Position numbers and translations under genes: made by a program. A stretch of 61,355 nucleotides of DNA from NCBI GenBank assembly GCA_947624965.1, contig CANQMN010000012.1, positions 1 through 61,355 on the forward strand, read 5' to 3'. Every line of letters begins with the position of its first letter. Within the stretch, counting starts at the first letter, position 1. The notes under the pieces are model-generated. The model did not search any database. It was not told the DNA's origin and saw only the letters and a program-made list of their open reading frames with translations. Shown here one piece after another: positions 15,612 to 61,355 of this stretch. Source of the stretch: an uncultured Clostridia bacterium (GTDB lineage: Bacteria > Bacillota > Clostridia > Christensenellales > Borkfalkiaceae).

Positions 15612-16000
15612 TGGTGGACCTGCGGAGAATTGAACTCCGGTCTTACAAGGTTCAACCGTGGACACTACACGTTTAGTCCGTGGTCGGTCTCGCCGTCGAA
15701 AAGTCCGCGGACAACCTTTCCGATGGCATGCTTCCGAAATTCATCGCTCTGCGGGGGAAGCCAACCGCAAAACGACGTTCCCTACTCGATTGACGCCCTG
15801 CTCCCGCGCCGTAGGCAACGCGGGGAGGACGGAGCGTAAAAAGTTACGCCGCAAGCGCTACGCGGCGAGCCGAAGCCCTGCGCGCGGAAGCGCGTCTGCT
15901 GGATTTTTCGTCAGCAATTAAAATTTTTCCGTTTTTACGGAGCCGAGCCTCCGACGTGCGTCCGACGATATCCGCTTGCAATCGAATCCGAAACAGGCCC
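15612..16000 (-). ncRNA. ssrA: tmRNA (ssrA)
   Basis: 389 bases. The 3' end reads GAGTTCAATTCTCCGCAGGT then CCACCA, a tRNA-like T-arm and acceptor; the acceptor CAGGTCC pairs with the 5' end GGGCCTG at 16000-15994 (one G-U pair). Just inside the 5' end is TTTCGGATTCGAT, typical of tmRNA. The tag frame runs 15915-15844: starts ADEKSSRR, ends VALAA then TAA. tmRNA with SmpB rescues stalled ribosomes and marks the product for proteolysis. The tag is 23 residues and arginine-rich, longer than most. The resume codon is inferred as GCT at 15915-15913; one codon earlier (ATT) is possible. Confidence 0.95.
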
Positions 16001-51236: not shown

Positions 51237-51665
51237 TCACAGCATCGCAAACCCGTAACCCACAAGGGGCGAAAGAAAAATGATGAGATAGATCAAAGTG
51301 ATATGGGGTTGATATTCGATATAAAACTGCCGAAATGTGAGCCGCCACGGGTGCGGGATCAAAACCCAGCCCACAAGGTCGAACACAATGCAGATCCCCG
51401 CCCATACGGCGCCCGCGATCAACGCCTCAATAGCGGTCGGTGCGGCGAGCCCTCGCATATAGAGCCAACCAAAGAGCGGAAACAGCACGATGTTATAGAG
51501 CGGATGCCACGGCTTGGTCGCCTCATAGCCCTCGCCCATCGAATGACCGTCCATCGGCTTCATGTGCAATACCTTGATATTGAACACGCAGTGCGCGATC
51601 CCCACGCATGTTACGCAAACATAACACACCCAAAACCACAACATACTCATTCCGAAATTCTGCAT
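51237..51665 (-). CDS. Small four-helix membrane protein
   Basis: 142 codons from the ATG at 51665 (AGGGGAAACT upstream); the frame is open to 51743 but lacks a ribosome site there. Four hydrophobic segments: SMLWFWVCYVCVTCVGIAHC, YNIVLFPLFGWLYM, ALIAGAVWAGICIVFDLVGW and ITLIYLIIFLSPLVGYGF, with the loop HPWRLTFRQFYIEYQPH between the last two. I do not recognise a family. It is upstream of the ABC genes and may be an accessory subunit. Confidence 0.65.
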   Translation of the reverse strand: MQNFGMSMLWFWVCYVCVTCVGIAHCVFNIKVLHMKPMDGHSMGEGYEATKPWHPLYNIVLFPLFGWLYMRGLAAPTAIEALIAGAVWAGICIVFDLVGWVLIPHPWRLTFRQFYIEYQPHITLIYLIIFLSPLVGYGFAML

Positions 51666-51754
51666 AGTTTCCCCTAATCGTCTCTCTCCGTCTGCTGTTC
51701 TCATCTGCGTCAATGCGCCATTCCGCCCCGCACACACCGCCACATATATCCCTC

Positions 51755-51809
51755 ATTCACTCGCCTTCTGCCCGCCGCGCATAGCGCGGCGGGCAGAAGG
51801 CGAGTGAAT
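51755..51809. repeat. 26-bp perfect inverted repeat with 3-base loop
   Basis: Arms 51755-51780 and 51784-51809 are fully complementary, GC-rich in the centre (CTTCTGCCCGCCGCGC), loop ATA. It lies between the TetR gene and the small membrane protein on the minus strand. There is no T-tract, so it is either a rho-independent-like stop without U-run or a palindromic repeat. Confidence 0.7.
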
Positions 51810-51825
51810 CTTTCCCTATCTTCCC

Positions 51826-52398
51826 CTACTTCATTTTCTCCCAAAAGCGTTCCCGTTCGGGGAAATAGTACCCGTATAGCGCAAAAAATTCCCGCGAGAA
51901 CGCGTCCTCGATCTCCTTTTCCGTGAGCGCGCCGCTGTCGCCGTATACGGTGAGCGCCAGCCCGAAGGAGAACACCGCCATGTCGGCGTGAAAGGCGCGC
52001 GCCGTCGCCTCGGACATGCGGTACTCTGCCGTCATCTCGCGCACGATGTCCTCAAAGAAGGGGTCGGCAATGGGCTTCCCCCCGAGGAAGAGAAAGCGGA
52101 ACAGCCCCTTTTCATCGCGCGCAAACCGCACGAACCCCATGCCGTACGAGCGGTACCTGCTCGGTCCCCCTCTTTCGAGATATCCGTCGATGTGCGCGCG
52201 GTAGCCCGCCTTCGCCGCTTCCGAGAGGGCGACGCGGAGCGCTTCCATGTTCTCGAAACGGGAATAGACGGGCTGCGTGGAACAGCCGAGCCGCCGCGCG
52301 ACGGCGCGGGCGTTCAACCCATCCTCGCCGCACTCCCGCACGATCTCCGCCGCCGCGCCGAGGATCGCTTCCGCCGTTATATTCTTTGTCCTTACCAT
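51826..52398 (-). CDS. TetR/AcrR family transcriptional repressor
   Basis: 190 codons from the ATG at 52398 (AGGAGCGAAG directly upstream). The HTH is AEAILGAAAEIVRECGEDGL then ARAVARRLGCSTQPVYSRFE (residues 8-50). The C-terminal ligand domain begins near residue 80 (TetR_C_33-like pattern with YGMGFVRFARDE). A 32-bp palindrome covers the DNA between its -10 box and ribosome site, so autorepression is nearly certain. The ABC-2 transporter genes are plausible further targets. Confidence 0.9.
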   Translation of the reverse strand: MVRTKNITAEAILGAAAEIVRECGEDGLNARAVARRLGCSTQPVYSRFENMEALRVALSEAAKAGYRAHIDGYLERGGPSRYRSYGMGFVRFARDEKGLFRFLFLGGKPIADPFFEDIVREMTAEYRMSEATARAFHADMAVFSFGLALTVYGDSGALTEKEIEDAFSREFFALYGYYFPERERFWEKMK

Positions 52399-52410
52399 CT
52401 TCGCTCCTAA

Positions 52411-52442
52411 AAATAACAACCGTTATATAACGGTTGTTATTT
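52411..52442. promoter_or_regulatory. 32-bp perfect palindrome: TetR operator
   Basis: Centred between 52426 and 52427, arms AAATAACAACCGTTAT and complement, no loop. It overlaps the -10 box of the TetR promoter by four bases, and the start codon lies 13 bases further. Confidence 0.88.
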
Positions 52443-52467
52443 TATCATATTCCCGTCGGACTGTCAA
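52439..52467 (-). promoter_or_regulatory. Promoter of the TetR gene
   Basis: Perfect TTGACA (52467-52462), 17-base spacer, TAAAAT (52444-52439) on the minus strand. Confidence 0.88.
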
Positions 52468-52484
52468 GCGTTTACGGAAATTTT

Positions 52485-54960
52485 CTACGTAAACTTTACG
52501 ACACGGCAACATGTGTTATAGGACAGGGAAAGCCACGAAAGACAGTAACATTCGCGGATCCCCGCGGTCCCTTTTAACTTCGAATAGATTTGTTCCCCAT
52601 ACTCGATCGCGCGCGGGATATCCCCCGCATCGTATGCGGCCACGATCGACTCTATCAACAACATTTGGTTTTTTCTCGCAACAATGTCGTATGACCAAAG
52701 TGATCTGTCGTCCGCCTTAATGATTTTTCCGTACAATGACAGAGCTTCGTCCATCTTGCCCTCGGAGGGCAGCATGCGCGCGAACACAAGGTCTCTGAGA
52801 ACGGTCAGCTTTCCGCTTAAGGCGACCTCGGTCAGCTTTCTCATACGCTCCGCACCCTCTTTTAAGTTGTTGAAGTGATCGTTCCATATCAATCCTCCCA
52901 ACGCCTTGATGGAATAAACCGGGTCCTCTTTGGTCAAAGCATACAATTTTTCTCGAAGACGACTACGGAAAGTTCCCGTTCGCCTTTGTAATCGCACACT
53001 GTGCCAAGCATAAAGAGACTTTCAAAATAATTTTCTGTCTTTTCGCAATTTTCGATCTCGGACAAATGTGTGTCAATGATCTCGCCACACTACGCAAGAT
53101 CTCCGACGACAAATCTTTCCTTCGCCCTCAGGTATTCGATGCAACCTGCAAGTCGATCGTTTTCGGAACTATTGGAGACGAGAAAATCGAGCCCGTCCAG
53201 CAGTGCCGTCCATTCATAATAGTATTCGGGATTATTTTGAAGTGTCTCTGCCAAGGCAAACGACCGTTCATAAAAAGCGTGATCTTTACTTAATTGTTCA
53301 AGAAGACGTTTTTTACCGCTCTTTTTGACGATACAGACAAAATTGATGCAGTCATAGTCCTTGAGTTCATCAACCTCGTATACTTTCCATAAATACTCTG
53401 CCGCAAGATCGTACCCATCCTCTTCACACACGAAATATCCGGCTGCGAACTCCTCGTTTCTGATCCATTCGGCAGCGAATCGTTGTAAAAACTGACGCAA
53501 AGATTTCCGATTCTATCGATATTTTTTATCAGCACCGTAGAAAAGCGCTCGAGAAACGACAGTAATTGCGGCTGTCTCCAATTAAGTGCCTTCTTCATGA
53601 GTGCAAGCGGAGGATTTTCCAACGCAACGATCAAAGAAAACGCGGAATAAAATTTATCGGCATATTCCTCCGTCGACACAGTTTGTTTGAACCATTTGAA
53701 ATACATATCGGCGATCTTTCCGGGGAGAACACCGACATCCTTAGGATCTATGATACCCGACCGCAAACCGCCTTTGACGACGGTCGCATATAAAAAAGAC
53801 CCATGTGCAGCTTTTGCAACTTCGGATCCGATATCAGCAGCTTCGGGATATATGGGCATAAGCGCCTTCGAGACAAACTCTTTGATGTCGTCAAAGATGT
53901 TAGGATCTTTCGGATCGACTGTAATTCTGTGCACCGCAGACTTTCCGGCAAGGACAGACATATCTTGTCTCATGGCAAACAGAAATCTCAAGTACTTCGG
54001 AAATAAATCGACTTTTTCGTAAAACAAATTGAATAGTTCGTTTTCTCCTCCGTTTGAAAGACTTTCTATTCCGTCCACGAGCACAATCACATTTTCCATA
54101 TGACCGTCTATGAGATTAAAGGGCTCAACGAGAAGATAATCGAATAATTCCGCATCGCTTAAAGAATCGACGGATACGCAGCTCTTATTTAAAAATGTTC
54201 CAGTCGGGTAGCAAAGGAAGGGATCCTGACGGCAAGCTGGAAACTGATTTCTCCTATGGCATCACCTACGGCATTCGTCCTGCTTCTGTCGCAGAATACA
54301 AGCCCTGCAACTTCGTTTTTGTAATGATAATAATTGGTGCAATAGCAACTTTTGCAAAATCCGGGGAACCCGACTAAAAGACAAAGTCTGCGATCATCGC
54401 CCTCAATCCAATCCAACAGTTTTTCATCCAACCAATTGCGTTTTTGAAAATCTTTCCCCAACTCGAACAGCTCACGCGAAAACTTCGGGGAACAATGTAG
54501 CCGATTTTTAATATTCTGAATTTTGTTTTCGTATTCGATATGCTGTGTAAAGCAAACCTTTTCAAGTTCCTCCATCTTCTGCCCGAACCACGCATCGAAC
54601 CGATCCTGCGGGATCTCCCGCCACTCCGAAAGGTCGAAGAATTGTATTCCGGCGATTGTTGGCGGAACCATACGTTCCACGTCCCGTTCTATCTTAACGG
54701 GTCGGATATTCCTGCGGTTACAGCTCAGGGCGATTGCAAGTTCGTCTAAACAAACTCCCGCCTTTCTCAAACCATACGTAGAAAGGAGTGAGAGAACAAA
54801 ATCGCTATTTATGATCGCTTCGGTAATCTTATCTCGCCAATCGTCTCCGGCGGCGATCCCGTCGTAGTCGATCCATATCATGGCCGATCTTCTTAAGATG
54901 TTCGGCTATTTTCCTTGCCTCGGCCTGAAAATCATGACCGTAACTGATAAAAATTCTCAT
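52485..54960 (-). pseudogene. Degraded TIR-STAND NTPase with C-terminal repeats
   Basis: One ancestral gene of about 820 codons can be read across at least four frames. It starts at the ATG at 54960 (GGGGAAG upstream) with a TIR domain (MRIFISYGHD, AEARKIAEHLKKIGHD). A frame change near 54880 leads to WIDYDGIAAGDDWRDKITEA, VLSLLSTYGLRK and CLDELAIAL, then a weak P-loop GFPGFCKS. A second change in a T5 run near 54200 leads to FLNKSCVSVDSLSD, Walker B VIVLVDGIESL and the rest of a STAND core. A third change near 53505 leads to SLRQFLQRFAAEWI. A TAG interrupts at 53093-53091, and a change in an A5 run near 52945 leads to TPR-like helices (ALSLYGKIIKADDRS, AIEYGEQIYSKLKG). Neighbouring genes are intact. 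Confidence 0.8.
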
Positions 54961-55243
54961 AGTATCTTCCCCATCCGTTCTTAGATTGTTCAAAAAAACG
55001 ATCCGTCGACCATATTATACCATACTGCGACCAAGATGCAAGTAAATGGGGGAAAATCCTCCCCCTGTCCCAAAAACATCCTGCGAATTTATAAGAATGA
55101 TTCATGAATTCCATAAAAAATGTTTTACCCGAACCATTGGGTTCAACTAAAGCCACATTGGTTTGGCTGTTTTGGGGATTTTGCCAATTATTAAATGTAT
55201 GAACTGAATAAAAATTGTTCCGTTCAATTTTCTTTATTCTCAT
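54932..55243 (-). pseudogene. N-terminal fragment of an AAA/SMC-like ATPase
   Basis: 103 codons. MRIKKIERNNF followed by NVALVEPNGSGKTFFMEFMN gives the strand and Walker A (EPNGSGKT) with which AAA15/OLD-like ATPases begin. After about residue 55 the similarity stops and the rest looks random, so only the start of a gene survives. Its end overlaps the TIR start at 54960. A minus-strand promoter at 55315-55342 remains upstream, plus a 28-codon frame (55310-55224) that overlaps its start. Confidence 0.55.
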
Positions 55244-55314
55244 CTAATTTCTTAAAGTTCCTTATTTCATCAATGCTTCTTATACCAACGCGGGCTGGGT
55301 CAAATTTCATTTTA

Positions 55315-55342
55315 ATTATAGCATATTTTATACAGTTTTCAA
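55315..55342 (-). promoter_or_regulatory. Promoter upstream of the ATPase fragment
   Basis: TTGAAA (55342-55337), 16-base spacer, TATAAT (55320-55315) on the minus strand. Between 55343 and 55556 I see no gene; 55390-55455 is similar, in inverted orientation, to 59551-59620. Confidence 0.6.
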
Positions 55343-55556
55343 AGGGTATTTATGCCATTTCGACAAAATTTTCCGATGCTTCTACCCAAAAGGCGGGTTT
55401 CCCGCTTGTTGAGGGACGAAAGTATTTTGTGGCACTTTCTTTATCCTGCTTCCCCATTTCGGCAAATTTGCCACAGGTCAAGCAACTCTTTGTGCCATCA
55501 AATTGGTAAGTTTTTACACATTTGATGGGCGAGAGAAAAAATTTTTTCGATTTGAG

Positions 55557-55840
55557 GTTGCATTTGCCGAAAAAATTCCGCCATACCAAAGTGGGAGAAG
55601 AAAATTCGTGTGAACAATTACGCAAAAATGCTCCCCATACCATAGGAGAGGAGATACCAATGCAGAACAAATGACCTGCCGTAGCAGTCGGGAAACGGCG
55701 ACAAAAAGAAAAACTTTTAAGGAGAAATAATGTCATGAACACATCGTAATAACGGAAGCAAAAGACAACCGCAAAAGCGATCCTGTAGTAAGCAAATGGA
55801 AAGCAAAAGTGGGACGATTTTCGGCAAAAGGTGAAGCAGG
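55557..55840 (+). repeat. 284-bp direct repeat, left copy
   Basis: Matches 59277-59560 at a constant offset of 3720 bases at both ends, with scattered substitutions and small balancing indels. Shared blocks include CCATACCAAAGTGGGAG, TGAACAATTACGCA, ATGCTCCCCAT, CATGAACACATCGTAA-like and AAGCAAAAGTG. No intact reading frame. It lies downstream of the TIR-STAND-HD gene; 55841-55936 shows only AT-rich DNA. Confidence 0.85.
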
Positions 55841-55936
55841 GTTAGATATTCTAAGGGACACAAATGCAAAACACAAAACTCAAGCAAACAGCAAGTTTGA
55901 ATTTTATTTGCCTTAATTACTCGTTGTTTTACGAAA

Positions 55937-58849
55937 TCAAATCTCGCCTATTATATCATAATAGGTTTTAAGAAAATGAGCGAACCGTTCATTTTCACAA
56001 ATCAGTTGCTTCAAAATATTTTTACCCAAGTTCGTCTTGATTGTCAACATCTCCTTAACCCAATTTTTTCTTCTTTCTTCGTCGAAATGGTTCGGGAATT
56101 TATCCACATAAACAAGAAACTGAAAAATCGCTTGGATAGTATCGATATCTTTGGCAATTTTTGCGTTTTCCTCTTCGCGAACATACCATGAATTCCACGC
56201 CTCTATATAGGGCGCCATGGAATCGACTTCATTGTAGGTGCCTTTAAGAAAAATGCTCAACATGACGGAATTTTCTTCTTTGTCGTAATCCGGGTAATTT
56301 ACTTTTTCATATTTCGGGATATCTGAAAGTTTTGTTTCCGCCAAATCGTGGATGAGGAGCATATTCAGAATTTTTGATTTATCGTAATTGCGGATTGACG
56401 GCTCTTTGTCGGGTAAATAAACGAGCCCGATGAACCAACAAGCATACATGTGTTCCACGATGCTTTCCGGATGTTCGATCTCTTGCATGACCCAACCCGC
56501 TCGTTTGACTTCAACCGCAGAAAGAAATTGATTGCACAGCGAACGTTTGGGCGAATATTTTCCTGCTCCGTCCGTGAGATAGGTACGGAAATCTTCCATT
56601 GCCATGGAAAAGAAGTTGAGGATAATATTGTCGTCCGACCCCAAACGGTCGATCGCCGCCTCGACCAATTCGATGCACTGATTGATATACGGAATGAGAT
56701 TGAAAGAAATGAGTTTCCTGTCTATCTCGATACGCACTTGTAAAAGGGAAACAATAGTGAATATCTCCAAAAGCAATGCCGAATGCGTACGGTTCGATTT
56801 TAATTGAGTTCCCACCGCATTGCAGAGAATGCGCAAAGTGCGTTCTCCGATGCGGGGATTATCCTCGTAATCCAATGTGTTTTGATTAGGAATATACCGT
56901 TTGTCTCCGTAATACTCCAAATGGAATCCGCGGTTGATTGCATTGCTCAAATCATTTTCGATCAAGCTGTGAATATATTCTTTCAGGACAGCCTTATCGC
57001 CGCAATAGATCAAACTTACCGAAAGCCCGCGCAGAAGGAAGAGGTCTTGTTTATAATCTTCCTGCGGATAAGGTTTATGGTTATATTTGCTGTCGATGAT
57101 GCGGTTTGTAATATGGTTTTTTGTTTCGATATAATTCAGATTGAGAAGTTTTATGGCCTCGGCGCGATAATTTTGATTTTCGATTCTACCGAGGAAAAAA
57201 GACATCTCGCTCTGACCCATGGGACCCAATTCGCTGTAATGTGTCGCAAGATCCAACAGTATCGCTTCGTAGCGCGGAATATTATGGATTCTTGCCGTTA
57301 TAAAACGGGTAATCTCCTTAGGGAAAATCATATTGAAGAACGAAAAATCTTTGTCATTGTCGTACTTGTCGAGATTATTGAAAAAATTGATCGCAATCAA
57401 ACAGTGAAGATAGATTGTTTCGCGGCAGATCAGCCGCATGGCATGAGCGATTGTTTCGTCCGAGAAATTTATTTCCGAGTGTCCGTAAGCGAATTCATAG
57501 ATTTCGGAAGCGCAGTACGAGATAGACTCCTTGTCGCCGTAAAATTCATCCAACAGCGTTTGCTCGGAAATATCCATGATGTTAATGCTCTTCCCGTCGT
57601 AATTTTCGCAAACGAGACGAATGACGTGCTCATCAATCGTAAGCAGTCCGCTTTGATTCAAAATATTGTATGCCTCGTCGGCATTGTATTGGAGCTCTTT
57701 TATCGTCGAAATATATTCGATACATTTATTCCTGTCGTACAGGCTGATGGGCGTAAGATTCAGATTGATATCGTATTTTCCGCGGGATAGTACGGAGCGG
57801 TTCAAGCGGGCGGCATTGTCCGAAAATACCATATTGATACCGAGAATATTGCAAGCTGAACGAAAACGATCAATATATCGTTTGATATCGTAATCAAGTT
57901 GCGGCTCAATTGTGACGATGTTCATGACCCCGTCGACAATAAAAAGCGGTCTGCGCTCGCTCGGTATAGTAACATTGCCGAAGAGCTGTTCTAAATAGAT
58001 ATTACCAGATTGCTTTCGTTTTGCGATCTCTTCACGGATATTGTCGCAGTGCACATAAACGGGTTCGAAATCATGATCATCATAATTTCTCCGCAGATAA
58101 ACGTATAACAGTTGCAAAACATAGCTTTTTTGCGTTCCAGCTTGTCCGGAAACCCGTATAAGATTTTGCGATGTGCTATTTTTGATCGCAAGATAGAGTT
58201 CATGGATAAAGTCGTTGCAATCGGAGCGAATCGCCTCCGTCGCCATACATTTGAGCCTCTTCGTGATCAATTTGCAATGATGCATAAATTCATTGTCATC
58301 GAAAGATACATAATGTTTCAAGTCATTATGAAGGAACGACAAGGAGATGGAGTCGAACGTGACGACCTCTTTGTTTTTCGAGATGTCTTGTACCGAGACT
58401 GCCATATGTAGATTTGCGTCTGCAACAATTAGAGATTCGTATATTTTTTGAAAACCATCCTTTCCGTAAAAGATATTTCTGTTGGCAAAAAGTGTATTGA
58501 ACTCATAGAGATCCTGTACGGTAATTTTTCCGAAGATATATGCCGAAATGATGCAGTTTTTAGACTTAGCACCATTTTTGCGTAAACCGTCAAATTGGCT
58601 TACTTCATCCGCAACCCACTCCGAAAGCATTTCTTTGTCACATGCAACCAGGATTAAATGTCTGCATGTACGAAGCGCATAATTTATCGCACTATAAAAG
58701 TCGCTATCATGATTTGTTTTTTTATAGAGGAAGCTAGATATCCCATTTTTTTCAAGGAATGTCTGCAATTCTTCTGCTTTCGAATAGGAACTCTTTGATT
58801 CGTCCCCTTGCCCTCCATGATACGAAATGAAAACATCCTTTGTTTCCAT
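55937..58849 (-). CDS. TIR-STAND NTPase-HD hydrolase fusion, candidate antiphage protein
   Basis: 970 codons, GGAGG before the ATG, own promoter. Residues 1-145: TIR domain (DVFISYHGGQGD at 5-16; AINYALRTCRHLILV; SEWVADEVSQF at 76-86, whose WVxxE places Glu82 where TIR NADases have their catalytic Glu). Residues 205-420: STAND/NACHT-like core with P-loop GQAGTQKS (235-242) and Walker B PLFIVDG (Asp306). Residues 430-770: helical, no clear repeats. Residues 780-920: HD domain like YfbR/HDDC2 nucleotidases: KRAGWV, ESIVEH (His800), LLIHDLAE (His834-Asp835, Glu838), LSDI, and a late Asp at about 903. Inference: a sensor-gated immune protein with two possible effectors, NAD+ cleavage and (deoxy)nucleotide hydrolysis. 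Flanking repeats suggest it moved as cargo. Confidence 0.82.
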   Translation of the reverse strand: METKDVFISYHGGQGDESKSSYSKAEELQTFLEKNGISSFLYKKTNHDSDFYSAINYALRTCRHLILVACDKEMLSEWVADEVSQFDGLRKNGAKSKNCIISAYIFGKITVQDLYEFNTLFANRNIFYGKDGFQKIYESLIVADANLHMAVSVQDISKNKEVVTFDSISLSFLHNDLKHYVSFDDNEFMHHCKLITKRLKCMATEAIRSDCNDFIHELYLAIKNSTSQNLIRVSGQAGTQKSYVLQLLYVYLRRNYDDHDFEPVYVHCDNIREEIAKRKQSGNIYLEQLFGNVTIPSERRPLFIVDGVMNIVTIEPQLDYDIKRYIDRFRSACNILGINMVFSDNAARLNRSVLSRGKYDINLNLTPISLYDRNKCIEYISTIKELQYNADEAYNILNQSGLLTIDEHVIRLVCENYDGKSINIMDISEQTLLDEFYGDKESISYCASEIYEFAYGHSEINFSDETIAHAMRLICRETIYLHCLIAINFFNNLDKYDNDKDFSFFNMIFPKEITRFITARIHNIPRYEAILLDLATHYSELGPMGQSEMSFFLGRIENQNYRAEAIKLLNLNYIETKNHITNRIIDSKYNHKPYPQEDYKQDLFLLRGLSVSLIYCGDKAVLKEYIHSLIENDLSNAINRGFHLEYYGDKRYIPNQNTLDYEDNPRIGERTLRILCNAVGTQLKSNRTHSALLLEIFTIVSLLQVRIEIDRKLISFNLIPYINQCIELVEAAIDRLGSDDNIILNFFSMAMEDFRTYLTDGAGKYSPKRSLCNQFLSAVEVKRAGWVMQEIEHPESIVEHMYACWFIGLVYLPDKEPSIRNYDKSKILNMLLIHDLAETKLSDIPKYEKVNYPDYDKEENSVMLSIFLKGTYNEVDSMAPYIEAWNSWYVREEENAKIAKDIDTIQAIFQFLVYVDKFPNHFDEERRKNWVKEMLTIKTNLGKNILKQLICENERFAHFLKTYYDIIGEI

Positions 58850-58883
58850 GCTTTGCGACCTCCAATCCGATAGGATATTAATA

Positions 58884-58912
58884 ATTATATCAGAAAATTT
58901 CGATCATGGCAA
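58884..58912 (-). promoter_or_regulatory. Promoter of the TIR-STAND-HD gene
   Basis: TTGCCA (58912-58907), 17-base spacer, TATAAT (58889-58884) on the minus strand, 35 bases before the ATG. Confidence 0.82.
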
Positions 58913-58952
58913 GTTAATTTGCTTTTACGGAATATAATTACATTCAGTACAG

Positions 58953-59017
58953 TAATAATTCAGGCGTGTTCGAGTGTTAGTATATGGAGAGCAAAATCGG
59001 ACTAATAATTTAGGCGT
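58953..59017 (+). repeat. Pair of 15-bp direct repeats 50 bp apart
   Basis: TAATAATTCAGGCGT at 58953-58967 and TAATAATTTAGGCGT at 59003-59017 (14 of 15 equal), with looser similarity beyond. Role unknown; could be protein-binding or recombination half-sites. No gene is seen in 58850-59276 apart from these and the terminator at 59064-59095. Confidence 0.45.
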
Positions 59018-59063
59018 TCTCGTGGCTTATAATTAGGGACGAAAAAACCAAATAGCAACGATC

Positions 59064-59095
59064 AAGGAAGTTTCGTACAAGAGACTTCCTTTTTC
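59064..59095 (+). terminator. Plus-strand terminator-like hairpin
   Basis: AAGGAAGT, 12-base loop, ACTTCCTT then TTTTC. No plus-strand gene precedes it, so it may be a relic or insulate the region. Confidence 0.6.
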
Positions 59096-59276
59096 GTGTA
59101 AAAAAATCTTTGATGCACACCCCGAATTTCTGTTCGGAAGTGTCCTATATAAGTGTCATAAAAAATATTTTGCGTTTTGGCCCTTCGATTTTGCCCGAAA
59201 ATCGCCCTTTTAAGTGAAGGGGTATCGCATGACAACGCTCTCGGTGCGGAAAATACAAAAAATTTTAAAGTTTTAT

Positions 59277-59560
59277 GTTGCATCTGTCGAAAAAATTCAA
59301 CCATACCAAAGTGGGAGGAAAAAATTCGCGTGAACAATTACGCAGAAATGCTCCCCATGCCATAATAGGAGGTGATGCCAATGCAGAAGAAATGACCTAT
59401 CATTGCGGTCGTTAAACGGTAGCGAAAAGATAAACTTTTAAGAAGAAATAATGTTATGAACACATCGTAAAAAGAAAGCAAAAGACAACCGCCGAGGCGA
59501 TCCTGCGGCAAGCAAACGGAAAGCAAAAGTGAGACGATTTTCGGAAAAAGGTGAAGCAGG
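59277..59560 (+). repeat. 284-bp direct repeat, right copy
   Basis: Second copy of 55557-55840. It ends about 100 bases before the promoter of the small protein at 59735 and runs into GGCAAATT..AAGCGGGAAACCCGCCTT, part of which recurs inverted near 55390-55455. It belongs to the mobile-element tail. Confidence 0.85.
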
Positions 59561-59660
59561 ATAAGGAAAGTGGGCAAATTCCCACTTTCGAGGTTTGGGG
59601 CAAGCGGGAAACCCGCCTTCCCCTCTGTTGCCTGAAAGGAAACTTTCTCGTTTGAATCCC

Positions 59661-59711
59661 TTGACTCTTCGGCTGGAATGGAGTAAAATATATGTATCGT
59701 ATGAATACGAT
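59661..59711 (+). promoter_or_regulatory. Promoter and operator-like dyad of mobile-element module
   Basis: TTGACT (59661-59666), 17-base spacer, TAAAAT (59684-59689), followed by the perfect dyad ATCGTAT-GA-ATACGAT (59696-59711), where a repressor would block early elongation. The small protein encoded 23 bases downstream could bind it. Confidence 0.7.
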
Positions 59712-59734
59712 TGATATATTTTACGGAGGTGATT

Positions 59735-59968
59735 ATGGAAAAGAAGCCGAGAGCGATCAAGGACAAGCGTTATGAGGAGAAGCATAAAACGGAGCGCAAA
59801 GCGAAAAACGCCACTTGGGGAACAAGCGTTCCCCGCGAGAAGGCGGAGCAAATCAACGCCTTTCTCGAAAAGTACGGCTATACCAAAGTCCAACTGATAG
59901 AAGCAGGCTATAAGGCTTTGTTGGACGATGCAGGCGAACATAATCTTTCACTCGGGAAAGATAAATAA
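59735..59968 (+). CDS. Small basic mobile-element protein, RHH-like
   Basis: 77 codons from the ATG at 59735 (CGGAGGTGATT upstream). The first 30 residues are strongly basic (KDKRYEEKHKTERKAKNATW), then GTSVPREKAEQINAFLEKYG and TKVQLIEAGYKALLDD resemble the strand-helix-helix of RHH proteins. Such small proteins are common just upstream of serine recombinases in Clostridial elements. Autoregulation through the dyad at 59696-59711 is inferred. Confidence 0.65.
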   Translation: MEKKPRAIKDKRYEEKHKTERKAKNATWGTSVPREKAEQINAFLEKYGYTKVQLIEAGYKALLDDAGEHNLSLGKDK

Positions 59969-60273
59969 CCTTAATTTCTCGCAAAAAATATCGCAGAGAT
60001 TTTTTGCGAAGAGGAGCAGCAACGGAATGAAGTTGCAATTTGCCGCAAGGTAAATTGCTTAATATGAAGTTTGCTGCGACAAGGACGGCTATGATGACTT
60101 CTTCCCTTCGGAATTGGAGGCGATGAAGAAAACCGAGTAACAAATATAGGGTTCCCGCAAAAAGACGAAGTATTTTTGTGGGAAGAGGAGCGGCAAGTCG
60201 AAAATAACAGCCGCGAAATGAAAATGAGCGGCGGGTGCAAAGACTTTGCCGCGACGAACAAGGAGGATACGCG

Positions 60274-60345
60274 ATGGAAAGAGAACATAGTATTCAGCGC
60301 TATAAGGGCGAGGGATATTCCAAGCGCTCGAATAAGAATACTTGA
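60274..60345 (+). CDS. 23-codon leader ORF before tnpW-like gene
   Basis: ATG with AAGGAGG seven bases upstream; the peptide starts MEREHSIQRYKGEGYSKR and ends with TGA that overlaps the next gene's TTG start (TTGA). Either a genuine small peptide or a device to load ribosomes on the non-ATG start of the TnpW-like gene. The 305 bases before it (59969-60273) hold no intact gene; 60063-60140 reads YEVCCDKDGYDDFFPSELEA without a start, a likely relic. Confidence 0.5.
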   Translation: MEREHSIQRYKGEGYSKRSNKNT

Positions 60346-60506
60346 AGGAAAAACAATTCAGCTATCAAAAGGAAATCGGAAACACGGTCTATACCGTGAT
60401 TGTAAAAGAAAGCAACACAGCAAAAGAAACAATATGGAAAAAGCTCGAAAGAGCGATTATAAGGGACTCGCTCGAAGAATGTCATTCCAAAGGAGAAATT
60501 CTATGA
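60342..60506 (+). CDS. TnpW-like transposon-encoded small protein
   Basis: About 54 codons from a TTG at 60342 that overlaps the leader stop; an in-frame stop at 60333-60335 leaves no ATG. KEKQFSYQKEIGNTVYTVIV then ATAKETIWKKLERAII resembles the TnpW family of Tn4451/Tn4453-type elements, always found just before the large serine recombinase. Function unknown. Its TGA overlaps the recombinase ATG (ATGA). Confidence 0.7.
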   Translation: MKEKQFSYQKEIGNTVYTVIVKESNTAKETIWKKLERAIIRDSLEECHSKGEIL

Positions 60507-61355
60507 AAAGACATTATTCGGCATCAAATAACCAATCTTATCTCGGAGGTGAGAAAATAACTGCCCTTTATGCCGTCTATCGAGGGACGACGAGAACGAG
60601 GGCGACAGCAACAGTATCGTAAATCAAAAGGCAATTCTCGGTAAGTACGCAAGTGAAAAAGGCTTCCCCAATCCCCAATTCTATGTGGACGACGGGTACA
60701 GCGGCACGAACTTCAACCGCCCTGACTTTATGCGGCTTATGGAAGATGTCAATGCGGGGAATGTCGGCACGATCATCGTAAAGGATATGTCGAGGCTCGG
60801 CAGGGACTATCTGAAATTAGGTGTTTATACGGAAATCACGTTTCCCGACGCAGGCGTTCGGTTCATTGCCATCAACGACGGCGTGGACAGCGAGAGCAAC
60901 GTGGATAATGACTTTACTCCCTTCCGCAATATCATCAACGAGTGGTATGCGAAAGACACAAGCAAAAAAATCCGCGCCGTGTTCAAGGCAAAAGGCAATT
61001 CGGGTAAACATCTCTGCACGATCCCGCCCTACGGTTACAAAAGGGACGAAAACGACAAGGAACATTGGGTTGTGGACGAGGAATCCGCGGCGGTCGTCAA
61101 AGAGATTTTCAGACTGTGCATGAATGGTTATGGTCCGACGCAGATTGCAAGGATATTGACGGAACGGGAAATCGACACACCGACAATCCATAACCGCAAA
61201 TGCGGTCTGCCCGCAACTTCGCTTCAAACGGAGTTTCCAGAACTATGGTCTACAAAAACTATTGCGGGCATCCTGTCTAATCCTGCCTACCTCGGTCATA
61301 CGGTAAATTTCCGAACGAAGAAAAAATCGTATAAGAGTAAAAAGCAGCTCGACCT
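60503..61355 (+). pseudogene. Large serine recombinase (TnpX-like), frameshifted, runs off window
   Basis: The ATG at 60503 has AAAGGAGAAATT upstream. The first frame gives a typical N-terminus to ITALY (about residue 23), then fails and stops at 60620. From 60571 the +1-shifted frame gives CRLSRDDENEGDSNSIVNQK with the catalytic serine, DDGYSGTNFNRPDF, VKDMSRLGRDYL, and the recombinase domain IPPYGYKRDEN through to the edge with no stop. The family normally reads ITALYCRLSRDD, so one base (a T at about 60570) is missing. Either the gene is dead or this is a sequencing error; the C-terminal part is outside the window. Confidence 0.8.

Follow-up and report, generated by a model that had tools for sequence, protein, structure and literature searches.

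Domain layout of the gene

We analysed a window of 61,355 nucleotides from an uncultured Clostridia bacterium (contig CANQMN010000012.1 of assembly GCA_947624965.1) and focused on a minus-strand gene at 55937..58849, which encodes an N-terminal TIR domain, a STAND-like NTPase, a middle segment and a C-terminal HD domain. The gene is one open reading frame (ORF) of 970 codons with an ATG start. The plus-strand reading of 55937-58849 has many stops. A preliminary description of the window had reported an intact 970-codon gene that joins the TIR, NTPase and HD domains. The frame is indeed intact, on the minus strand, and the same domain order was found nearly full-length in dozens of homologues, so the arrangement is not due to chance. 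The residue numbers given there for Glu82, Lys241, His834 and Asp835 are correct. The source genome (1.79 Mb, 34 contigs) carries a single copy of the gene.

All of the following features are on the minus strand. The TIR domain occupies residues 1-145 (58415..58849; Pfam match 6-90) and includes a catalytic-type glutamate, Glu82, in the sequence WVADE (58604..58606). The STAND/AAA-like nucleotide-binding domain (NBD) covers approximately residues 205-345 (57815..58237), with the Walker A sequence GQAGTQKS at residues 235-242 (58124..58147) and the Walker B sequence LFIVDG at residues 302-307 (57929..57946). It is followed by a post-NBD region seen from conservation (approximately residues 346-479, 57413..57814) and by a middle segment that occurs paired with HD (residues 480-774, 56528..57412). 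The middle segment contains NRGFHLEYYGD (residues 639-649, 56903..56935), a nearly invariant motif that is altered in one lineage. The C-terminal domain is an HD_3 domain of the YfbR/HDDC2/YGK1 type (residues 775-965, 55955..56527). Within it we located R783-x-G785-W786 (56492..56503), the metal ligands His800 (ligand 1, 56450..56452), His834-Asp835 (ligands 2 and 3, 56345..56350) and Asp903 (ligand 4, 56141..56143; Asn in one sister lineage), and Asp843 (56321..56323), which takes the position of YfbR D77 by its spacing from the His-Asp pair.

The TIR domain was recognised by a TIR_2 match to residues 6-90 (E 2.8e-6) whose 28.3 bits lie just above the Pfam cut-off of 28; matches are stronger in some relatives, e.g. 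67.6 bits in P0145. The alignment column of Glu82 holds E in 43 of 47 letters with non-TIR rows included, and in the profile alignment 66 of 68 TIR-labelled proteins have E and two have gaps. The N-terminal TIR domain with a WVxxE catalytic-type glutamate, as first described, is thus upheld, and this domain is the predicted NAD+-cleaving output of the protein. No Pfam NTPase family matched the 970-residue protein at E ≤ 1. The STAND-like NTPase core proposed for it is recognised through its family, because the Walker columns are nearly invariant and relatives match profiles of this kind. In Walker A, Gly235 is present in 53 of 54 rows and Gly238 and Lys241 in all 54 rows with a residue, and Asp306 of Walker B is present in 53 of 55. 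One relative, P0147, exceeds the Pfam NACHT cut-off (3.2e-9), and a family profile built from 109 sequences matched a Cdc6-type chain (1.6e-6) and NLRC4 (0.0045) in a PDB set.

The core, its HD domain and the exchanged N-termini

A search with the full-length protein, in which the best 7995 candidates were scored, returned 52 proteins, most of which contain TIR and HD across nearly the whole query. P0050 has a nucleoside-phosphorylase domain where the TIR would be. With its STAND-HD part as query (best 7990 candidates scored) we obtained 39 proteins, among them ones with phosphorylase, trypsin-like, CHAT and TIR N-termini. The middle segment alone (residues 480-765) matched 107 proteins (2004 candidates, all scored), and precomputed Pfam annotations place HD_3 in 106 of these; the exception, P0034, is 727 residues long and its longest contig has 2,536 bases. 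A contig scan by GFHLEYYG and ESIxEHMY gave 28 loci, of which 22 encode NTPase, middle segment and HD, one (L017) middle segment and HD, and five HD only. Judging by organism names, the loci are spread over Clostridia, Bacteroidota, Proteobacteria, Campylobacterota, Cyanobacteria, Verrucomicrobia and Actinobacteria. Profiles of the NTPase, middle and HD parts matched all three together in 170 proteins, middle and HD without an NTPase match in 3, NTPase and middle in 1 (P0034) and HD alone in 6. The 173 homologues with middle segment and HD include duplicates; without P0110, the 172 cores represent 170 distinct sequences. As judged from these sequences, the family core is constant and consists of the NTPase, the middle segment bearing NRGFHLEYYGD and the HD domain.

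Mean pairwise identity among 55 diverse sequences is 41% for the HD domain (residues 775-930), 44% for the motif region (626-706) and 26% for the NBD. Among 33 close relatives the corresponding values are 64%, 68% and 40%, with 62% for TIR residues 5-90. The HD domain and the motif region therefore appear as the best-kept parts, unlike what would be expected of a fast-evolving detector of phage proteins. We also built an HD-only tree from 44 family HDs, chosen by hand and at random, and 14 others. On this tree 43 of the 44 fall on one side, P0089 groups with stand-alone HDs, and the Bacilli sequences L019, L020 and L022 and the poorly filled L040 nest inside the family. A strict clade of family HDs was rejected by the approximately unbiased (AU) test (p 0.004), and we do not claim a single origin. 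The three Bacilli loci (L019:9548-10588, L020:9557-10579 and L022:9557-10579) have similar gene layouts and encode proteins of 340-346 residues with an HD domain and neither NTPase nor middle segment. Inter-domain contacts were sought by mean-field direct coupling analysis (177 sequences, effective depth 143, 720 columns); the top pairs were scattered and were judged to be noise.

The HD_3 match covers residues 781-929 with E 4.3e-24 and 85.7 bits (Pfam cut-off 22.5). HDDC2 aligns over the same HD residues (E 1.6e-22), and PDB mutants of HDDC2 differ from the wild type where H834, D835 and D903 align. Yeast YGK1 aligns over the whole HD domain, R-x-G-W included (E 4.5e-21). The match to E. coli YfbR (E 0.011) covers part of the domain and stops short of R783 and W786. 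The YfbR metal ligands are H33, H68, D69 and D137, its residues R18, W19 and D77 confer deoxyribose specificity and inactivate the enzyme when substituted, and YGK1 is a phosphatase of deoxynucleoside monophosphates (dNMPs), as reported in PMC8177086. The spacing between D835 and D843 equals that between D69 and D77 of YfbR. R18 and W19 are adjacent in YfbR, whereas the family has R-x-G-W, as do HDDC2 and YGK1, and we infer that R783 and W786 are the counterparts of R18 and W19.

R783, G785 and H800 are present in all 173 homologues, and H834, D835, E838, D843 and D903 in all 172 that have a residue there (P0110 is gapped). W786 occurs in 171 of the 173 (F in L024, Y in P0151), as does E795. 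The C-terminal HD domain resembling YfbR and HDDC2, with its His, His-Asp and late Asp, is therefore as first described. That account made its reading depend on conserved HD residues in homologues; they are invariant among the 173, and one of them, D903, is replaced by Asn in four further sequences. From the metal site, the putative deoxyribose-contact residues and the likeness to YGK1, the HD domain is predicted to bind dNMPs, and it would probably cleave them. A separate stand-alone HD_3 gene, with a frame of 200 residues, is located in the same genome (G000:C8:38791-39252).

The four sequences with Asn at D903 (L035, a fragment, L064, L078 and L082) were found in genome searches around the source taxon and form a sister lineage. 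In this lineage G785 is replaced by Gln or Ser and the His of NRGFHLEYYGD by Thr; the Phe of the motif is Ala or Glu in the three sequences that extend to it. R783, W786, H800, H834, D835, E838 and D843 are retained. The motif and the metal site probably changed together here, once. Such a change would speak against universal catalysis and for a coupling of motif and pocket, and a pocket that is kept while a metal ligand is altered would fit a reader better than a toxin.

The N-terminus could be labelled in 153 of the 173 proteins; several of the 20 unlabelled ones are short. The labels are TIR (60), PNP (34), wHTH (22, winged helix, based on one Pfam match, Trans_reg_C at 3.2e-11 in P0120, and similarity to P0120), unknown X2 (13), trypsin-like (10), GNAT-TIR (8, the GNAT label being based on one weak sub-cut-off match, P0036, and length), alpha/beta hydrolase (2), and CHAT, EAD1, PRTase-CE and calcineurin (1 each). 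On a FastTree phylogeny of middle segment and HD (140 rows), the 11 labels require at least 16 changes compared to a mean of 63.8 for shuffled labels, a number that is rough, given that 44 of the tree's 137 inner branches are unresolved and that long branches come together. In PADLOC, the PRTase, calcineurin, PNP and trypsin-like N-termini match known or candidate defence effectors. P0142, in which PRTase-CE is fused to STAND-HD, matches PRTase_III-A (5.3e-46), and P0144, with the order calcineurin-STAND-HD, matches the model 'Effector' (1.8e-17). The other PADLOC matches in the nine relatives compared are partial and mostly to the NTPase.

The winged-helix members (P0120 and 21 similar proteins, e.g. 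L008:9509-12481) suggest a transcriptional or adaptor output. At L083:1291-4245 the core has no visible N-terminal effector domain, and a gene of 243 residues with one strongly hydrophobic stretch (L083:547-1278) ends 12 nt before it; this is perhaps a two-gene form with its output in trans. L013 was considered as a case of a separate upstream TIR gene; its core has unreadable bases and it was not used as evidence.

Genomic setting and carriage

The minus-strand sequence 5' of the gene contains GGAGG, of ribosome-binding type, 9 nt from the ATG (58859..58863). Further upstream, TTGCCA-17-TATAAT with TG ahead of the second hexamer (58884..58912) is promoter-like by consensus match only; the region has 12 such sites compared to 9.6 ± 3.0 in shuffles, a number not above chance. 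A scan of 51500-61355 against Rfam gave no match. GC content is low around the gene (38-47% from 52.5 kb on, versus 56-65% at 44-52 kb), and near the edge of this AT-rich island lies a perfect 26-bp inverted repeat with arms 3 nt apart (51755-51809). Direct repeats of ~310 nt (55537-55845 and 59257-59565, 83-86% identical by piece and 3720 nt apart) flank the gene and possibly mark a cassette; contigs C16 and C11 also have shorter pieces of this repeat. Adjoining the gene on the minus strand is a second TIR plus NTPase-like gene (52485-54881), apparently in pieces in different frames (54189-54881, with TIR_2 at 8.8e-12; 53290-54099; 52485-52997). It looks as if an older defence gene were decaying beside the intact one. 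Two more TIR_2 genes lie close together on contig C11 of this genome (G000:C11:37998-38354 and C11:40706-40990). Elsewhere in the window, ARAGORN predicted a tmRNA on the minus strand (15612-16000) with an odd repetitive tag, ADEKSSRRASARRASARRVALAA.

Carriage is patchy. At E ≤ 1e-30 we found the protein in 4 of the 103 genus genomes, in 10 of the 398 family genomes and in 1 of 398 genomes sampled from the phylum. An initial count of 121 carriers among 396 genomes of the order was rejected: a match from NTPase to HD is present only in G000, G336, G386, G047 and G287, G330 matches in two pieces on two contigs, and the other order genomes among the matches listed match in part only. A search of the class with the L064 protein gave 12 of 391 genomes at E ≤ 1e-20, and only G000 matched beyond the TIR part. 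The virus collection contained two loci, both HD only. No place covering 80% of the query was found for the 970-residue protein or P0054 in plasmids, or for P0054 in phages.

A few relatives have defence genes nearby. The Marinicella marina relative is ~2 kb from an adjacent GajA-GajB pair (E 5.5e-295 and 7e-242). In Microcystis, a ResIII protein encoded directly beside the relative separates it from a type III methyltransferase (3.4e-155) at a distance of 3.8 kb. HipA_C and DUF4062 proteins are encoded near the Flagellimonas relative and a phage integrase near the Sphingomonas relative. DUF4062 proteins have been reported as antiphage NADases (PMC13174449); for the Flagellimonas DUF4062 neighbour, PADLOC gave nothing at 1e-8. 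The 103 neighbours of 16 loci include a single recurrence, a similar pair at L027 and L012 (E 6.4e-32).

Proposed mechanism, alternatives and relation to known systems

We give about an even chance to the reading that the protein is a STAND-type switch, likely an anti-phage receptor, in which the HD domain would be a sensor of dNMPs and the TIR domain the NAD+-cleaving output. Bacterial NACHT/STAND proteins sense with the C-terminus and have the effector at the N-terminus (PMC12169576). The HD domain is most likely the sensor because STAND defence proteins vary the effector around a fixed input. The preliminary description had offered two functional readings. That the HD part is the sensor is the better supported one, because HD stays constant while the N-terminus is swapped; a protein that drains NAD+ and (deoxy)nucleotides is less so. 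An input role would also be the simplest reason for retaining an HD domain beside a winged-helix or EAD N-terminus. That a nucleotide can gate an HD enzyme of defence has a precedent in Clover, whose CloA senses dTTP, which is raised by phage enzymes (PMC12265719).

In the resting state, the middle segment and the HD domain would keep the NTPase core shut. Breakdown of host DNA to dNMP-type compounds is common among phages. Once a phage does this or upsets the nucleotide pool, the HD pocket, which would sit beside the NRGFHLEYYGD segment, would be filled by dNMPs or by a modified dNMP. The core would then open and the protein would multimerise with bound NTP, so that clustered TIR domains could cleave NAD+ and the infected cell would be stopped. 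Turnover of the ligand by the HD domain would provide both a threshold and a reset. In the relatives the same input would drive a phosphorylase, a protease, a lipase-like hydrolase, a PRTase or a DNA-binding domain.

Several observations weigh against this sensor reading. The protein searches depend on shared words, which is a selection bias, and the genome-contig loci were picked by GFHLEYYG and ESIxEHMY, so that their conservation of the motif and H800 is partly by construction. The YfbR alignment misses R783 and W786, the proposed deoxyribose-type residues. That the catalytic residues are almost perfectly conserved suggests a need for hydrolysis, and an effector role would account for this too. 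The D903N lineage probably reflects a single event, and an Asn at this site may still hold the metal. By a regular expression, no standard Ser motif was found in 9 of the 10 trypsin-like N-termini, and some of the N-terminal 'effectors' may thus be inactive. The wHTH class could indicate a metabolic regulator instead of immunity. Defence neighbours are few, and among the 103 neighbours 24 of the best 25 of 179 matched PADLOC families are Gabija models; several Pfam-annotated neighbours of the relatives are housekeeping genes, and of 10 neighbours scanned one by one, 6 matched nothing in PADLOC at 1e-8.

The HD domain could be a second, constant effector: once activated, the protein would cleave NAD+, or the target of whichever N-terminus it has, and HD would strip dNMPs such as dTMP/dUMP and so starve phage DNA synthesis, with the middle segment reading the trigger. 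The catalytic residues kept in the 173 homologues and Clover CloA, as a nucleotide-depleting HD enzyme in defence (PMC12265719), are in line with this, and a nucleotidase and a phosphorylase could make a two-step pathway in the 34 PNP-labelled proteins. A further point for this explanation, and against a sensor, comes from PMC8195603, which proposes C-terminal GT4 domains on STAND proteins, some of them TIR-headed, as effectors; its main text mentions HD once, C-terminal on NCOA6-clade TRADD-N proteins, among 'potential enzymatic effector domains'. We nevertheless regard a second effector as rather unlikely. The N-terminus swaps around the fixed HD domain, with the non-enzymatic wHTH and EAD1 among the partners; a stand-alone HD_3 gene is present in the same genome, which suggests that a cell may tolerate this activity; and the D903N lineage has Asn in place of the fourth metal ligand. 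Alternatively, the HD domain might act as a timer or brake that clears a nucleotide signal, inhibitory or activating, produced by another enzyme, with the trigger acting elsewhere. Conservation of the HD site would fit, and Clover is among the systems with inhibitory nucleotide signals (PMC12265719), yet no neighbour recurs beside the family save the one similar pair, and we think this improbable.

An HD domain that serves as an integrated decoy of a host nucleotidase, bound or inhibited by a phage protein whose contact trips the switch, would suit the C-terminal sensor position and has a precedent in plant receptors with integrated decoys. A decoy needs a suitable surface only, yet R783, H800, H834, D835, E838, D843 and D903 are invariant in the 173-protein set while linkers vary, which makes this explanation very improbable to us. 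We give the least credence to a role outside immunity, in which a STAND protein would regulate nucleotide metabolism and act through transcription or NAD+ turnover. The wHTH N-termini of 22 proteins would be expected in that case, whereas the TIR, PRTase-CE, calcineurin, trypsin-like, CHAT and EAD1 N-termini are defence- or conflict-type domains, and patchy carriage and some defence neighbours also argue for immunity.

The preliminary description knew of no named system with this domain order, and we found no PADLOC model that covers the core. The only PADLOC match of the 970-residue protein was to ThsB (38 residues, E 0.02), which does not place it in Thoeris. No Avs model was among the PADLOC matches listed for it at E ≤ 1 or for the nine relatives at E ≤ 0.01, and no PADLOC model covered the core of the nine relatives. 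Among the matches listed from titles and abstract openings of the open-licence literature, no STAND protein with a C-terminal HD_3 was present. The parts are known; their combination, with HD as a constant module across interchangeable effectors, appears to be undescribed.

We compared the family to the systems that resemble it in part. Avs proteins likewise have exchangeable N-terminal effectors, TIR among them. bNACHT and Avs proteins sense phage proteins through helical or repeat C-termini, whereas our gene product ends in a nucleotidase-type HD domain in which every ligand is present. The effector-NTPase-sensor order is common to both (PMC12169576). The dNMP 5'-nucleotidases YfbR, HDDC2 and YGK1 share the metal ligands, E838 and D843 with the HD domain, and HDDC2 and YGK1 also R-x-G-W; the solved proteins are ~200 residues long, whereas our HD domain makes up the last fifth of a 970-residue switch protein. 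Clover likewise employs an HD-fold enzyme, and its defence is gated by a nucleotide that rises in infection, but CloA is a dNTPase with a nucleotidyltransferase (NTase) partner and combines HD with a helical bundle, whereas our system is one gene with TIR and NTPase and an HD of the HD_3 type (PMC12265719). No NTase was detected among the six neighbour ORFs scanned, and no wider search was made. DS-8, a metallophosphatase-NACHT protein of DefensePredictor, has been validated as a NACHT defence that consists of one protein and includes a phosphatase domain (PMC13092281); it may be comparable to the calcineurin-STAND-HD protein P0144, and 'HD domain' has no matches in the main text of that paper. 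The STAND-GT4 and EAD10/constant-core conflict systems also combine a constant C-terminal part with exchangeable N-terminal effectors, although their constant part is GT4, or TPR with GreA/B-C and PIN, instead of HD (PMC8195603).

More broadly, we propose, tentatively and at less than even confidence, that the family represents unnamed, widespread NLR-like receptors for a metabolite instead of a protein, in which an active deoxynucleotidase reads dNMPs set free by phage digestion of the host chromosome, resets itself by destroying this ligand and is connected to about ten interchangeable outputs. To our knowledge, recognition of infection has been explained for only a minority of STAND/NLR families. 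If the proposal is true, the sensor would be a recognisable enzyme with a predictable ligand, so that the trigger would be directly testable. Surveillance of the nucleotide pool would join NLR-type immunity, and one conserved input module would be available with many natural outputs to compare.

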